NCBI RefSeq assembly: GCF_002284575.1
Contig: NZ_NPKJ01000019.1
Coordinates: 248,001 to 312,000 of the forward strand
Length of the DNA: 64,000 bases
Source: Mesorhizobium temperatum
GTDB lineage: Bacteria; Pseudomonadota; Alphaproteobacteria; Rhizobiales; Rhizobiaceae
Direction of reading: 5' to 3'
A program made the translations under genes and the position numbers. Of the stretch, positions 40,644 to 47,523 are shown one piece after another (positions within the stretch are counted from its first letter, which is position 1; the number at the start of each line of letters is the position of its first letter). Below the pieces are notes generated by a model. The model searched no databases. It was given only the letters and a program-made list of their open reading frames with translations, and was not told the DNA's origin.

Positions 40644-40753
40644 GGGCGTTTCGACATCGCTCCTGACACCCTTGTGTCAGCAGCTTGGTTTCCTCTCGCG
40701 CCCCTAGTCACTCCGCTCTTTCCATTTTGGCCGATACCTCCCATATTCGGGGC

Positions 40754-43700
40754 ATGGCCAAACTTTCTGATAAAAAAACGCCGCAGCCGGCGCGTGATGA
40801 TCGCGCTTCGCCGCCCAAGCGGCGCAGCCCGTTGACCGATTTCCTCGATGCTTCGGAGCCGCTGCACAAGTGCGGTTTTGCCGAGGCGCCGCAGGCTGAA
40901 TTCTCAGGCACGCCGCTGACCGGCTCGATCGCCGATTGGGCCGAGCAGATCGAGCAGGAAGCCGAGAAGGAAGGGCGCCAAGTCTCCCCGCTTGAGGGGG
41001 AGATGTCGCCGAAGGCGACAGAGGGGGTCGGCAAAGGAAGCGCTCAACATGAGGGGTCGCCGAGCACTGCCGCACCGACCCCACCCGGCGGCTCCGCCGC
41101 CACCCTCCCCTCAAGGGGGAGGGAAGGCGCCAAGCAAAAGAAGATTCCCGAACGCTCCTCCTCCCCTGGCCGCACGGCGCGAGGCACCTCGATGGGCGGC
41201 GCGGCGTCGGCGCGGGAGCGAACCGCGGCCGGCCTCAATCCAGTTGCCGGCCTCGATGTTTCGCTGGAAGAGGCCGAGACCATGGCCTCCGGCGGCGTCA
41301 CCGCCACCGTTGCGGCGCTGTCGGCGCTGATCGAATCCGGCAATCCGCTGCACAAGGACGGCGTGCTGTGGACGCCGCACCGCCCGGCCCGGCCGGAAAA
41401 ATCCGAAGGCGGCATCGCCATCAAGATGGTGTCGGATTTCGAGCCGGCCGGCGACCAGCCGACGGCGATCAAGGACCTTGTCGAAGGCGTCAACGACAAC
41501 GACCGCACCCAGGTGCTGCTCGGCGTCACCGGCTCGGGAAAAACCTTCACCATGGCCAAGGTGATCGAGGAGACGCAGCGCCCTGCTTTGATCCTCGCCC
41601 CCAACAAGACGCTGGCCGCGCAGCTTTATTCCGAGTTCAAGAAATTCTTCCCGGAAAACGCCGTCGAGTATTTCGTCTCGTACTACGACTACTACCAGCC
41701 GGAAGCCTATGTGCCCCGGACGGATACCTTCATCGAGAAGGAATCGTCGATCAACGAGCAGATCGACCGCATGCGTCACTCGGCGACGCGCTCGCTGCTG
41801 GAGCGCGACGACGTCATCATCGTCGCCTCGGTATCCTGCATCTACGGTATCGGCTCGGTCGAAACCTATACGGCGATGACCTTCCAGATGCAGATCGGCG
41901 ACCGGCTCGACCAGCGCGCGCTGCTCGCCGACCTCGTCGCCCAGCAATACAAGCGGCAGGATATCAACTTCGTGCGCGGCTCGTTCCGCGTGCGCGGCGA
42001 CACGATCGAAATTTTTCCGGCTCACCTAGAGGATCGCGCCTGGCGCATCTCGCTGTTCGGCGACGAGATCGAGGCGATCACCGAGTTCGACCCGCTCACC
42101 GGCCAGAAGACCGGCGAATTGAAGAGCGTCAAGATCTACGCCAATTCGCACTATGTCACGCCGCGCCCGACCCTGAACCAGGCCATCAAGTCGATCAAGG
42201 AAGAGCTCAAGCACCGGCTGGTCGAACTCGAACGGGCAGGACGCCTGCTCGAGGCGCAGCGGCTGGAGCAGCGCACCCGCTTCGATCTCGAGATGCTGGA
42301 AGCCACCGGCTCCTGCGCCGGTATCGAGAACTATTCGCGCTATCTCACTGGCCGTCAGCCGGGCGATCCGCCGCCGACCCTGTTCGAATACATTCCCGAT
42401 AATGCGCTGGTTTTCATCGACGAAAGCCACGTCACCATACCGCAGATCGGCGGGATGTATCGCGGCGACTTCCGCCGCAAGGCGACACTGGCGGAGTACG
42501 GTTTCCGCTTGCCGTCCTGCATGGACAACCGGCCGCTGCGCTTCGAGGAATGGGACGCCATGCGCCCGCTCTCCGTCGCGGTTTCGGCAACGCCCGGCGG
42601 CTGGGAAATGGAACAGTCCGGCGGCGTCTTTGCCGAACAGGTCATTCGCCCGACCGGCCTGATCGACCCGCCGGTCGAAGTGCGTCCGGCCAAGACCCAG
42701 GTCGACGACGTCGTCGGCGAAATCCGCGAAACCACCAAGGCCGGCTACCGTACGCTGGTCACCGTGCTGACCAAGCGCATGGCCGAGGACCTCACCGAAT
42801 ATTTGCACGAGCAAGGCATTCGCGTCCGCTACATGCACTCCGACATCGACACGCTGGAGCGCATCGAGATCCTGCGTGACCTGCGCCTCGGCACCTTCGA
42901 CGTGCTGGTCGGCATCAACCTTTTGCGCGAAGGTCTCGACATTCCCGAATGCGGCTTCGTTGCCATTCTCGATGCCGACAAGGAGGGCTTCCTGCGCTCC
43001 GAAACTTCGCTGATCCAGACCATCGGCCGCGCCGCCCGAAACGTCGACGGCAAGGTCATCCTCTACGCCGACCAGATCACCGGCTCGATGGAGCGGGCGA
43101 TGGCCGAAACCAACCGCCGTCGCGAGAAGCAGATGGAGTGGAACGCGGCCAACGGCATTACCCCGGAATCGGTCAAGTCGCGCATCTCCGACATCCTGGA
43201 CTCGGTCTACGAGAAGGATCATGTCCGCGCCGACATCTCGCAGTTCACCGACAGCGCCGGCGCGATGATGGGCAACAATCTGAAAGCTCATCTCGACGCG
43301 ATGGACAAGCAGATGCGCGACGCCGCCGCCAATCTCGACTTCGAGAAGGCGGCCCGCATCCGCGACGAGATCAAGCGGCTGCGCGAGATGGAGCTGTCCA
43401 TCTCCGACGATCCGCTGGCCAAATATGCCGATATGGAAAGCCCGGTTTCGGGCCGCGAGAAGGGCAAGCACAACAAGGGCCGCGCCATCCACCGCACGGT
43501 CGACGATGACGGCAAGGGCCTGTTCCGCAAGCCCGCGCTCGATGAGATGGGCGCCGACGGCGCCGTGCCGGTCAAGAAGCCGCTCTTTGCCAAACCCTCG
43601 CTCGACGCGATGGGTCCGGGCACCGACATGCCGACGCCGGCCGGTGCGGTATCCCGCTCGCTGTTCAAGAAACAGTCGGCCGAAGAGGCGCACGGTTCCG

Positions 43701-43966
43701 ATTTCGGCATTCCAGGCGACTCGACCAAGCCGCTGTTCAAGAAGAACTCGCTCGATGAGATGACCGTGCGGCGGACTGAGAAACCGGTCGAAGGAAAAGT
43801 GCCAGCCAAGCCACAGCCGATCTCCCGCCAAACGGGCGCGAAGGAACGCTACGATTCGGCCAAACCAGTTGTCCGCCAGCGCGCCGGCATCGGCTCCTAC
43901 GAAGACCCCGCCGACGCCCGCCGCGAAAAGCGCCGCCCCGGTAAGACCGGTCGGCCCGGACGGTAG
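40754..43966 (+). CDS. uvrB: Excinuclease ABC subunit B
   Basis: 1,070 residues, against about 670 for a typical UvrB. It is the damage-verifying helicase of nucleotide excision repair. The core begins near '[20 protein letters not shown]' (residue 227); Walker A is 'GVTGSGKT' (257-264), the beta-hairpin is near '[20 protein letters not shown]', and a UvrC-binding UVR motif lies near '[17 protein letters not shown]'. The N-terminal 226 residues are extra and include a translated palindromic repeat (residues about 77-127). The C-terminal tail has four copies of an LFxKxxLDEM-like motif. The ATG at 40754 is preferred; the frame is open 69 bases further upstream. Confidence 0.92.
40982..41134. 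repeat. Palindromic repeat inserted in frame inside uvrB
   Basis: The left arm (from TCTCCCCGCTTGAGGGGGAG to 'GAGGGGGTCG') and the right arm (from 'CGACCCCACCCGG' to 'CCTCAAGGGGGAGGG') are imperfect inverted copies of each other. They flank a centre of about 45 bases. The same architecture occurs between genes at 43977. Here the whole element is read through without a stop, giving about 50 residues in the UvrB N-terminal extension. Confidence 0.72.
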
Positions 43967-44114: not shown

Positions 44115-45383
44115 GTTTGGACTGGGGACATCGCGAACAGGTGTGCGAGGACATCGCGAACAGTTTGCCATCCTATCGAGCCAGGGCATTGAGGTCGATG
44201 GTTTCTATTTTCTGGTGTCTGAACCAGGCGTCGAAGACGCCGTCGGCAGCGGTTGGGCGAAAGGCGACGGATTTGCCGGCGAAGGCCCTGCACAGGCGCA
44301 TGGTGTGGCCGAGGATGGAGACGAAGCCATGCTGCTGAACGCGGCGGACGAGATCGTCCTTGGCATAGTCGAACGGCTCGACGATATCGCGATACTGGCG
44401 CTGCGAGACGCGGTAGCGGTCGAGCGGCACAGCGCCGCCAAGCGCGTCGTGCGGACGCACGGTGTTGTAGACGTGACGCCAGCGATCGAAGGCGTCCTGG
44501 GCCTTGGGGAGATCGGCAAAGGGCGGTCCCTGCAGCGCTTCGGCTTTGAGCGAGCGATGGAAGCGCTCGTCCTTGCCGAGCGTCTGCGGGTGGCAAGGCC
44601 TGGAGTGGCTGACGGCGACGCCAGCCTCGATCAGCCAGACGGTGAGCAGCGTGAAGTTGTTGCGGCCGCCGTCGCCCCAGGGCGGGCCGTTGTCGGTGGC
44701 GATACGCCACGGCAGGCCGTATCGGCGGAAGGCGGCGATCAGCCGGGCCTTCACGGTTGCGGTGGTCTGATCGGCGCAGGCCGACAGCGCGATCGAGAAG
44801 CGCGAATGGTCGTCGAGCACAGTGAGCGGATGCAGCCGACCGCCATGCAAGGCGATGTGGCCCTTGAAATCCATCTGCCACAGATCGTTGGGAGCTTCGT
44901 GCTCGAAGCGGATGAAGGGCTGCGCCCCGCCGCCCAGCGCGCCCAGCGCGATGCCGTTGCGGCGCAGGATGCCGGTCACCGTCGAGGCCGCGGGCGTGCC
45001 GATACCATCGCGGGCGATGACGCGCGCGATCTTGCGTCCACCCCAAGCCGGATGCGCTGCACGCACCGAAAGCGCAGCCGTTTCCACCTCCGGCGCGCAC
45101 TGCGCCGGGCTCGATCTCGGCCGCCGCGACTGCTCGGCCAGTCCTGCCTCGCCCTCGCTCCGGTAGCGCGAAAGCAGCTTGTGGCCGCACGTCCGCCCGA
45201 TGCCGAAGCGCCGACACAACGCGCTCACATTCGACCCCTCCACCAACGCCAGCCTCACGAACTCCAACTTCTGCTTCATCGCGCTTCTGTCCTTGAGCGG
45301 CATCCCGAACCCCCTCGCGCACAATGCGCAAAACTGTTCGCGATGTCCTCGCACACCTGTTCGCGATGTCCCCAGTCCAAACA
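44115..45383 (-). mobile_element. Complete IS481-family insertion sequence
   Basis: 1,269 bases bounded by perfect 53-base inverted repeats (44115-44167 and 45331-45383) beginning TGTTTGGACTGGGG. Each end contains the 14-base unit GACATCGCGAACAG twice, probably two transposase sites. A 5-base target duplication AAGGG flanks it (44110-44114 and 45384-45388). It landed in the last stem of a palindromic repeat between uvrB and the ABC-F gene. Perfect ends and an intact transposase suggest a recent, functional element. Confidence 0.88.
44173..45303 (-). CDS. IS481-family transposase
   Basis: About 376 residues from the ATG at 45303. An N-terminal helix-turn-helix ('EGSNVSALCRRFGIGRTCGHKLLSRY') is followed by an rve/DDE integrase core. 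Core segments are 'DLWQMDFKGHIAL' (first Asp), 'RIATDNGPPWG' (second Asp) and 'HPQTLGKDERFHRSLKAE' (catalytic Glu region). The segment 'YNTVRPHDALGG' closes the family pattern. The frame is open upstream to 45384, but that part lies in the terminal repeat. Confidence 0.9.
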   Translation of the reverse strand: MPLKDRSAMKQKLEFVRLALVEGSNVSALCRRFGIGRTCGHKLLSRYRSEGEAGLAEQSRRPRSSPAQCAPEVETAALSVRAAHPAWGGRKIARVIARDGIGTPAASTVTGILRRNGIALGALGGGAQPFIRFEHEAPNDLWQMDFKGHIALHGGRLHPLTVLDDHSRFSIALSACADQTTATVKARLIAAFRRYGLPWRIATDNGPPWGDGGRNNFTLLTVWLIEAGVAVSHSRPCHPQTLGKDERFHRSLKAEALQGPPFADLPKAQDAFDRWRHVYNTVRPHDALGGAVPLDRYRVSQRQYRDIVEPFDYAKDDLVRRVQQHGFVSILGHTMRLCRAFAGKSVAFRPTAADGVFDAWFRHQKIETIDLNALAR

Positions 45384-45495
45384 AAGGGGAGAAGGGGGAG
45401 CATAGCCACCACTGTCAACGGCCGGCCACTTGCCATCCGCCCCACCCTTGGTGTAGCCAGTTTCTACAACTCAAACGTCTTGAAAGGAGGGCTGC

Positions 45496-45561
45496 ATGTC
45501 TTTCGACCACCACCGTCAGCGCGGCCCTGTCCCTGCCCTGCGAGCTTGCTTGCAGGGCTGA
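45496..45561 (+). CDS. Leader peptide upstream of the ABC-F gene
   Basis: A 21-codon ORF with a near-perfect ribosome binding site (AAAGGAGG, 5 bases before the ATG). It reads MSFDHHRQRGPVPALRACLQ-G. The R-Q-R is an Arg-X-Arg motif of the kind that promotes macrolide-dependent ribosome stalling in erm-type leaders. Its stop codon (45559-45561) lies inside the first arm of the alternative stems described for 45552-45697. Ribosome stalling in it could therefore change the mRNA fold. Confidence 0.6.
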   Translation: MSFDHHRQRGPVPALRACLQG

Positions 45562-45697
45562 CCAGAGACGGTCCGGGTTCTCCCGCTTCGATTTTCTTGG
45601 TCTGCCCTTCGTGGTGCTGCAATGCCGAGCCTGATGGCCTGCCTGCGCACCGTCAAAGTGCATCGAACCGGAGCCTCACTCCGGGCAGACCAGAGAA
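45552..45697 (+). promoter_or_regulatory. Candidate translational attenuator of the ABC-F gene
   Basis: GGTCTGCCC (45599-45607) pairs perfectly with GGGCAGACC (45683-45691), just before the weak ribosome binding site AGAGA of the ABC-F gene. It can pair, with one mismatch, with GGGCTGACC (45555-45563) at the stop of the leader ORF. The two competing arms are part of a 14-base direct repeat GGGC-T/A-GACCAGAGA. A further stem GCCCTGC / GCAGGGC (45535-45541 and 45552-45558) lies within the leader ORF. Mutually exclusive folds of this type sequester or free a start site. Confidence 0.6.
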
Positions 45698-45703
45698 ATC
45701 AAC

Positions 45704-47233
45704 ATGGCCCTGATCAGCCTCAAGTCCCTCGGCGTCACCGTGAGTGCGCCGCTCTTCTCCAACCTCGATCTCACCATCGGCACCGGCGACCGCCTCGGCA
45801 TCGTCGCCGCCAACGGCCGCGGCAAATCCACCTTGCTGAAGTGCCTGACCGGCGAGATGGAGCCGACATCAGGCGACATCACCCACACGCGCGGCCTGCG
45901 CGTCGGCTATGTCGAGCAGGCCGTTCCCGCCGCACTGGCCGAGCACCGCTTTCAGCAGGTGGTGGCGGACGCCTTGCCGGCCGAGCAGGCCGAAAGCGAG
46001 CAATGGCGCGTCGACGTGGTTCTCGATTCACTCGACGTGCCGCAGCCGATGCGCGAGCGGCCGATGCGGGCCTTGAGCGGCGGCTGGCAAAGGCTGGCGC
46101 TGATCGCCCGCGTCTGGGTCACCGATCCCGACGTCCTGCTTCTCGACGAGCCGACCAATCATCTCGACCTTGCCAAGATCAGCCAGCTCGAAACCTGGCT
46201 GAACGCACTGCCGCGCGAGGTGCCGGTGGTGATTGCCAGCCATGACCGGGCGTTCCTCGACGCAACGACCAACCGGACGCTGTTCCTGCGCCCCGAACAG
46301 TCGCCGGTATTCTCGCTGCCCTACTCAAGGGCACGCGATGTGTTGAGCGAAGTTGACGCCTCGACCGAGCGCAAATTCCAGCGCGACATGAAGGTGGCGC
46401 AGCAATTGCGCCGGCAGGCGGCCAAGCTCAACAACATCGGCATCAACTCGGGCAGTGACCTGCTGACGGTCAAGACCAAGCAGCTCAACCAGCGCGCCCA
46501 GCGCCTCGAGGAGGTCGCGGCACCCGCGCACCGCGAAAGATCTGCGGGCGCGATAAAGCTCGCCAATCGCGGCACCCATGCCAAGGTGCTGATCACGCTC
46601 GACGACGTGGCGGTCGAAACGCCTGACGGCACGCTGCTGTTCAGGACCGGCAAGCGCCATATCTGCCAAGGCGACCGCATCGTCCTGCTTGGCCGCAACG
46701 GTGTCGGTAAGTCGCGGCTCATCAGCCTGATCAGGAATGCCATCGTCGAGCCGGAGACGGCGGCGCAAGGCGTGAAGGTGACGCCGTCGACGGTGCTCGG
46801 CTACAGCGATCAGGCGCTGTCGGGCATCAGTGGCGACGACACGCCGCTGGCGATGCTCTCGCGCAGGTTCGATGTCGGCGAGCAGCGCGCCCGCTCGTTG
46901 CTGGCGGGTGCGGGCGTCGGCATCGACATGCAGGAGCGCAGGATCGGCGTGCTGTCGGGCGGACAGAAGGCGCGGCTGATGATGCTGGCGCTCAGACTCG
47001 CCAATCCCAATTTCTACCTGCTCGACGAGCCGACCAACCATCTCGACATCGACGGCCAGGAGGCGCTGGAAACGGAACTGCTCGCCCATCAGGCGAGCTG
47101 CGTGCTGGCATCGCACGACCGCTCCTTCATCAGGGCGATCGGCAACCGTTTCTGGCTGATCGAGAAGCGGCGGCTGGCCGAGGTCGACAGCCCCGAAGGT
47201 TTCTTCCGATCGGTGGCAGAAACGGGCGGTTGA
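45704..47233 (+). CDS. ABC-F family ATPase
   Basis: 509 residues with two ATPase domains and no membrane segments. Domain 1: Walker A 'GIVAANGRGKSTLLK', signature 'LSGGWQRLAL', Walker B 'VLLLDEPTNHLD'. The linker is about 80 residues of basic coiled coil ('FQRDMKVAQQLRRQAAKLNNIG'). Domain 2: 'LLGRNGVGKSRLI', 'LSGGQKARLMML', 'FYLLDEPTNHLD'. ABC-F proteins act on the ribosome, either in translation control or in protection from antibiotics that bind the 50S subunit. The upstream leader ORF and stems argue for drug-responsive or stalling-responsive control. Confidence 0.88.
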   Translation: MALISLKSLGVTVSAPLFSNLDLTIGTGDRLGIVAANGRGKSTLLKCLTGEMEPTSGDITHTRGLRVGYVEQAVPAALAEHRFQQVVADALPAEQAESEQWRVDVVLDSLDVPQPMRERPMRALSGGWQRLALIARVWVTDPDVLLLDEPTNHLDLAKISQLETWLNALPREVPVVIASHDRAFLDATTNRTLFLRPEQSPVFSLPYSRARDVLSEVDASTERKFQRDMKVAQQLRRQAAKLNNIGINSGSDLLTVKTKQLNQRAQRLEEVAAPAHRERSAGAIKLANRGTHAKVLITLDDVAVETPDGTLLFRTGKRHICQGDRIVLLGRNGVGKSRLISLIRNAIVEPETAAQGVKVTPSTVLGYSDQALSGISGDDTPLAMLSRRFDVGEQRARSLLAGAGVGIDMQERRIGVLSGGQKARLMMLALRLANPNFYLLDEPTNHLDIDGQEALETELLAHQASCVLASHDRSFIRAIGNRFWLIEKRRLAEVDSPEGFFRSVAETGG

Positions 47234-47337: not shown

Positions 47338-47523
47338 ATGTCTATTCTGTCATCCGTAGGTCGTATAGCGACCCGTTACTCGGCGGCTCGCGCCCGTTAC
47401 CGCAGCGAGCGCGCCCTCCTTTCATTGCCGATCGAGCTGCGCAAGGACATCGGCTGGCCGGAGATCGTCATCGACGCACAGAACAGCCCGCGGATTGCAA
47501 TCTCCTTGTCCGAGGCAAGATGA
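47338..47523 (+). CDS. Small DUF1127-like protein
   Basis: 61 residues with a GAGGAGAAAG ribosome binding site. The Arg-rich C-terminal half 'RYRSERALLSLPIELRKDIGWPE' matches the DUF1127 (YjiS-like) pattern. Such small proteins in rhizobia bind RNA and take part in phosphate, carbon and small-RNA control. The exact role here is unknown. Confidence 0.72.
   Translation: MSILSSVGRIATRYSAARARYRSERALLSLPIELRKDIGWPEIVIDAQNSPRIAISLSEAR

Follow-up and report, generated by a model that had tools for sequence, protein, structure and literature searches.

A conserved leader peptide and RNA hairpin set before an ABC-F gene of Mesorhizobium temperatum and other Alphaproteobacteria: a candidate ribosome-stalling attenuator

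The leader, the RNA arms and the ABC-F gene

The window, a stretch of 64,000 nucleotides from a Mesorhizobium temperatum genome of 7.17 Mb, contains an ABC-F gene preceded by a short leader ORF and by four complementary RNA segments, named here arm0 to arm3. A 21-codon ORF with an excellent ribosome binding site had been described in an earlier note on this DNA, and both were found before the ABC-F gene. The features of the region are the following.

45483–45491, + strand: Shine-Dalgarno (SD) sequence of the leader, AAAGGAGGG, predicted anti-SD pairing of −16.1 kcal/mol
45496–45561, + strand: leader ORF, MSFDHHRQRGPVPALRACLQG, 21 codons; the coordinates take in the TGA stop at 45559–45561
45523–45528, + strand: codons of Gly10-Pro11, the proposed stall site, with Gly in the P site and Pro in the A site
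45535–45545, + strand: arm0, GCCCTGCGAGC, expected to pair with arm1 if the leader is unstalled; inverted repeat with covariation in 66 sequences
45548–45568, + strand: arm1, GCTTGCAGGGC (partner of arm0) continuing into TGACCAGAGA across the stop codon; GGGCTGACCAG is the partner of arm2
45590–45607, + strand: arm2, GATTTTCTTGGTCTGCCC, the shared site, with complementarity to arm1 as well as arm3
45683–45700, + strand: arm3, GGGCAGACCAGAGAAATC, immediately 5' of the ABC-F ATG; partner of arm2, covering the start region
45704–47233, + strand: ABC-F gene, the proposed controlled gene, 509 amino acids with two ABC_tran domains

The predicted anti-SD pairing at the ABC-F start reaches only −3.5 kcal/mol, compared with −16.1 for the leader, and by the same prediction the leader has the stronger SD in all 73 representative loci used below, which include 12 later loci left unclustered for similarity. 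The most conserved element of the region is the inverted repeat of arm0 with GCTTGCAGGGC (45535–45545 and 45548–45558, 11 nt, 91%), through which a fourth arm absent from the earlier note (GCCCTGC at 45535, arm0) forms a hairpin with the leader stop region. The other arms had been recognized before: GGTCTGCCC at 45599–45607 does possess two alternative partners, one with a single mismatch at the leader stop region (GGGCTGACC, 45555–45563) and a perfect complement at the ABC-F start (GGGCAGACC, 45683–45691), and these belong, as claimed, to a 14-base direct repeat, GGGCTGACCAGAGA at 45555–45568 and GGGCAGACCAGAGA at 45683–45696, identical at 13 of 14 positions. The 9-mer GGTCTGCCC occurs twice over both strands of the window against 0.63 expected; since 14 of 100 shuffles also reach two copies, its recurrence by itself is weak evidence. 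A longer inverted repeat joins 45590–45618 to 45672–45700 (29 nt, 72%).

Regarding the whole region, its predicted fold has a z-score of −3.08 against shuffles, none of 200 being equally good, and the predicted resting fold holds arm0:arm1 and arm2:arm3 simultaneously, with the ABC-F start covered. The layout is thus one of four arms as in erm-type attenuators, an arrangement known from the ermC attenuator: either arm0:arm1 together with arm2:arm3 (start covered), or arm1:arm2 (start free). Two marks of that type are found: a brief leader that is translated from a strong SD of its own, and four arms with two exclusive pairings. Neither an intrinsic-terminator-like site nor a sigma-70 consensus promoter was found in 45300–45800, and Rfam covariance models gave no match on the region, either at the gathering score or at E≤1.

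The top-scoring NCBIfam ABC-F model for the protein is NF000355, of antibiotic-resistance ABC-F, with 298.4 bits, below its cut-off of 380, and on this comparison of sequences the protein is not named a resistance protein here. Among chains with a solved structure, YheS, YbiT and ExpZ are nearest to it in sequence; AlphaFold, given an alignment of two rows, produced a model of mean pLDDT 40.3 that was left unused. An IS481-family transposase ORF (44173–45384, − strand) lies between a UvrB gene (40685–43966) and the leader, which is intact beside this upstream insertion; in several relatives, a UvrB fragment stands upstream of the leader in place of the transposase ORF. On the 3' side of the ABC-F gene, an ORF of 61 residues (47338–47520, + strand) has a good ribosome binding site and no family match.

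Distribution of the leader with its ABC-F gene

Within the genus, a DNA search recovered the region in 34 of 37 genomes and in none of 24 others. A pattern count over the genus (140 of 146 genomes) is given no weight here: the pattern can match by chance, and its backward control produces hits as well. Two covariance models were then used: R1, built on 37 genus leaders, and R2, with 62 positions, for the class-wide search. The leader pattern, R1 and R2 each match the host genome once, so that, by these searches, its other ABC-F genes are without such a leader.

As seen with R1, the leader is present in 86 of 394 genomes of a family sample and in 62 of 397 genomes of an order sample, the latter having an ABC-F at E≤1e-100 in 64 genomes. 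In the order sample, 56 of the 62 matches adjoin the ABC-F gene directly on its 5' side. Among the others, one leader (L167) is separated from its ABC-F gene by a transposase ORF, another (L169) sits at the end of a short contig with the ABC-F gene behind it, and for the four remaining, whose E values are 1.7e-4 or worse, no ABC-F was matched. The insert of L167 is a transposase-like ORF at 863–2105 on the − strand, named by eye. Conversely, six ABC-F genomes lack an R1 match; in five of them a leader is readable by eye, and the ABC-F of the sixth is only 36% identical. The leader therefore accompanies 63 of the 64 ABC-F genomes of the order sample, the five read by eye included. Among the further loci fetched from the family sample, seven are without ABC-F: six weak matches and L151, where a leader-like remnant (540–760) is followed by an ABC-F gene lost just past its start codon.

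At the class level, R2 matches 15 of 385 genomes, the host genome counted. In 10 of the other 14, an ABC-F gene with 52–63% identity lies downstream and a leader is readable in all ten, and four have no ABC-F. Nine of the ten leaders have Gly-Pro two codons 5' of the hairpin, and the tenth (L211) has Gln-Pro. Carriers identified by name include psymA of Sinorhizobium meliloti (L195) and a Shinella sp., as well as Rhodobacterales, with Ketogulonicigenium vulgare, Gemmobacter fulvus and a Rhodobacteraceae MAG. In Bradyrhizobium macuxiense (L192), a one-base deletion between Gly-Pro and the hairpin makes the leader continue in another frame. The position of the leader in front of the ABC-F gene, as first described for the window, is thus borne out across the order and class samples: the leader and its hairpin set are real, conserved and travel together with this ABC-F, and conservation of the cassette extends well outside the rhizobia, with recurrence in other alphaproteobacterial families.

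Constraint on the peptide and on the RNA pairings

For the peptide, 141 leader rows were collected, of which six with a misplaced ABC-F start or an odd ORF and L123, whose arm0 begins GCCTTG, were removed, leaving 134. Proline is kept in 132 of these, encoded by CCC (52), CCG (39), CCT (35) or CCA (6), and glycine likewise in 132, with three codons used. Over the 73 representatives, the entropies at the first, second and third positions of the six core codons are 0.60, 0.60 and 1.34 bits, respectively; Gly-Pro stands exactly two codons 5' of the hairpin in 72 with all four proline codons occurring, and Arg or Lys is found three positions before Gly in 62. The residue after the core is mostly Val or Ile, and the N-terminal residues are variable. 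The constrained core, as read from these alignments, is R-[QT]-x-G-P, its spacing to the hairpin is fixed, and the leader is under constraint at the protein level. Programmed frameshifting at Gly-Pro was set aside, the Pro codon being free among the four.

The Arg-Gln-Arg proposed earlier as the stall motif does not hold in this comparison: [RK]x[RK] occurs in 50 of the 73 representatives (38 RQR and 12 RTR) and is replaced in 23 by RQC, LQH, RTH, RQY, LTY and others, against 72 with Gly-Pro at the fixed hairpin distance. Although it is the commonest form, Arg-X-Arg is excluded on this count as the general determinant, and the conserved Arg/Lys-X-Arg/Lys at the stall site that marks macrolide leaders of the +x+ kind is not what is seen here. 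Gly-Pro itself has exceptions, being replaced by Cys-His or Arg-His in L144 and L150, where the hairpin and arms are retained, and changed by Gln in place of Gly in L211.

Regarding the RNA, 66 of the 73 representatives entered the covariation alignment of the arm0:arm1 hairpin, six hairpins of unusual length having been set aside earlier. In this alignment 96.4% of cells are paired, compared with 29.8–51.5% when the arms are slid, and 6 of 11 pairs are changed on both sides, with 35 double-change cells against 9.1 in shuffles and 0–15 on sliding. The stem bases co-vary, as with GCCCCGCG and CGCGGGGC in Rhodobacterales. The hairpin is also retained in leaders whose stop codon lies within it (L148, L149, L172, L188, L147 and L153), and it is therefore not a by-product of coding.

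For one stretch on the arm2 side with complementarity to arm1 and arm3 alike, 69 of 73 representatives fall below the shuffled mean and 38 reach p≤0.05, related sequences being counted as independent in these pairing tests. Taken singly over 61 representatives, arm1:arm2 pairs better than shuffles at p<0.05 in only 26% and arm2:arm3 in 48%, and arm3 in many relatives pairs worse than in the window (GGCAAGACC). The Rhodobacterales type has other arm letters and keeps the scheme, with p of 0.02 for L197 and a non-significant 0.49 for L196. Within the genus, RNAalifold also proposed a long-range pairing of the leader codons for Arg-Gln-Arg-Gly with the start codons of the ABC-F gene, which was rejected because other genera start with ATGACCCTC, ATGTCGCTC or ATGAGCCTC.

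A proposed stalling switch and its alternatives

The best explanation of these features, and a likely one, is an attenuator in which ribosomes stall on a leader peptide and so control an ABC-F translation factor, with Gly-Pro rather than Arg-X-Arg as the motif, the switch itself being a prediction from sequence. In the proposed mechanism, the leader would be translated from its strong ribosome binding site, the RNA resting as arm0:arm1 and arm2:arm3 with the weak ABC-F start covered. Slow peptide-bond formation into Pro after R-x-x-Gly would then make the ribosome wait with Gly-Pro in the P and A sites, its front edge lying over the first bases of arm0, so that arm1 would be freed to pair with arm2, opening arm3 and the ABC-F start. 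A ribosome running on to the stop codon would instead cover arm1, and arm2 would close arm3 again. Stalling at R-x-x-Gly-Pro is suggested by the conserved core, and the signal that slows the ribosome may be a drug at the peptidyl-transferase centre or a lack of ABC-F or EF-P activity. The translational attenuator drawn in the earlier note keeps its translated leader, its competing arms with a shared site and its covered start, but not its two-partner logic as written, because with the upstream partner occupied by a ribosome, GGTCTGCCC would pair at the ABC-F start, which would then be closed; opening thus needs an earlier stall, over arm0.

By position, a ribosome that holds Gly in its P site has its edge three bases into arm0; one that holds Gln8 there ends three bases before arm0, and one at the stop codon covers arm1. 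When nascent RNA without arm3 was folded, arm1:arm2 had on average 5.1 bp unstalled, 7.3 with the ribosome at RQR, 11.3 at Gly-Pro (above 5 bp in 58 of 58) and 0.1 at the stop, and arm0:arm1 had 9.5, 9.5, 5.4 and 0 bp, respectively; the nascent RNA of the window already has 8.7 bp of arm1:arm2 with no ribosome. At equilibrium with arm3 present, arm2:arm3 has 7.5 bp unstalled, 6.3 at Gly-Pro, 5.5 with Pro in the P site, 8.0 at RQR and 8.2 at the stop. The mean unpairedness of the ABC-F start, 0.368 unstalled, becomes 0.394 at Gly-Pro and 0.410 with Pro in the P site; gains above 0.05 are seen in 16 and 19 of 58, respectively, and losses in 6 and 5. Equilibrium folding of the window itself gave no change at the ABC-F start. 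Given the small size of this change, if the switch works as proposed, either it must depend on the order in which the RNA is made or the arms are wrongly weighed by the equilibrium model.

A leader of the macrolide type, in which a drug would stall the ribosome at Arg-X-Arg and the ABC-F gene would be induced as a resistance gene, agrees with the 50 of 73 representatives in which RQR or RTR precedes Gly-Pro, with the drug response of known ABC-F attenuators and with the +x+ motif of MefAL and ErmDL. It is nevertheless very unlikely, as 23 representatives lack Arg-X-Arg, a ribosome with Gln in the P site leaves arm0 wholly free and moves the unpairedness of the start slightly in the wrong direction at equilibrium (0.368 to 0.347), and the ABC-F, at 298 bits, falls short of the cut-off of 380 set for the resistance family. 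On the first two of these points, the macrolide reading was replaced by a stall at R-x-x-Gly-Pro. The hardest to sustain is that the peptide is irrelevant and that the passage of a ribosome alone, or plain translational coupling, opens the structured start: this would suit the weak SD of the ABC-F gene and the strong one of the leader, but R-x-x-G-P is constrained as protein, with free third positions and variable N-terminal residues. Less improbable than either, though still unlikely, is a transcriptional output of the same leader and stall, whose translation would expose or hide a Rho site or a pause, steered by the arms. Transcription is where many ABC-F attenuators act, and EttA acts on the MgtL leader, which gates Rho; against it, no intrinsic-terminator-like site was seen in 45300–45800 and arm3 sits at the ABC-F start, as a translational switch requires. 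For the stalling attenuator, control would be placed at translation rather than transcription.

No description of the leader was found in the literature searched, which was mainly open-access. Known ABC-F genes with leaders include msrD, whose product MsrD damps its own induction and whose leader MsrDL stalls at its own stop codon and controls a terminator (PMC10314930), VmlR (PMC9226507), LmrC and others. ermC, MsrD and VmlR share with the present case a short leader, a strong SD and exclusive hairpins, with an ABC-F target in the latter two; here, in contrast, the proposed R-x-x-G-P stall motif lies inside the leader, the shared site lies between two repeat arms, the ABC-F falls below the resistance-family cut-off and the host is alphaproteobacterial. 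Arrest peptides with R-A-G-P or R-A-P-P at their end expose a start that lies downstream, and the RAPP-like ApdP occurs in Alphaproteobacteria (PMC10987492, PMC12992588). SecM, ApdP and ApcA resemble the leader by an Arg shortly before Gly-Pro or Pro-Pro and by a stalled ribosome that frees a covered downstream start; however, none of the motifs RAGP, RAPP or RGPP is found, the core being R-x-x-G-P with Arg three residues before Gly and not two, the leader has about 20 residues and no export signal, and the target is an ABC-F and not a Sec or YidC gene. In toiL of E. coli, which senses several ribosome drugs, a stall within the leader likewise unmasks a downstream ribosome binding site, but several different stall sites are proposed there (PMC12121999), compared with one site at a conserved hairpin distance here. 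A patchy ABC-F outside the well-known families recalls PAF1 and other predicted-resistance ABCFs, PAF1 being described as a predicted new resistance ABCF from Vibrio, Enterobacter, Klebsiella, Serratia and Citrobacter (PMC6723617).

Stalls at Asp-Pro in Bacillus subtilis are relieved when extra YfmR is present, and together with the ABC-F leader genes, the action of EttA on MgtL and the arrest peptides, this makes a Gly-Pro stall before an ABC-F gene a natural arrangement; these precedents also hint, though they do not demonstrate, that the leader may be acted on by the very factor whose gene it precedes. It is possible, if somewhat doubtful, that R-x-x-Gly-Pro, together with a hairpin located where the mRNA enters the ribosome, forms a self-testing sensor, that is, a stall resolved by this very ABC-F. 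Low ABC-F activity would then leave ribosomes waiting and open ABC-F synthesis, enough activity would shut it, and throughout the class such feedback would adjust how much of a ribosome-rescue factor is made, drugs being only one way of deepening the stall.

If the stalling attenuator is true, it would represent an unannotated family of arrest-type leader peptides common to many families of Alphaproteobacteria, whose sequence, structure and target are all fixed enough for testing, and a natural reporter for an uncharacterised ABC-F, its signal being whatever relieves or deepens the Gly-Pro stall. The case of Arg-X-Arg indicates how a plausible motif in a single genome misleads until relatives are compared. 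For the Gly-Pro claim itself, L144 and L150 are natural tests.
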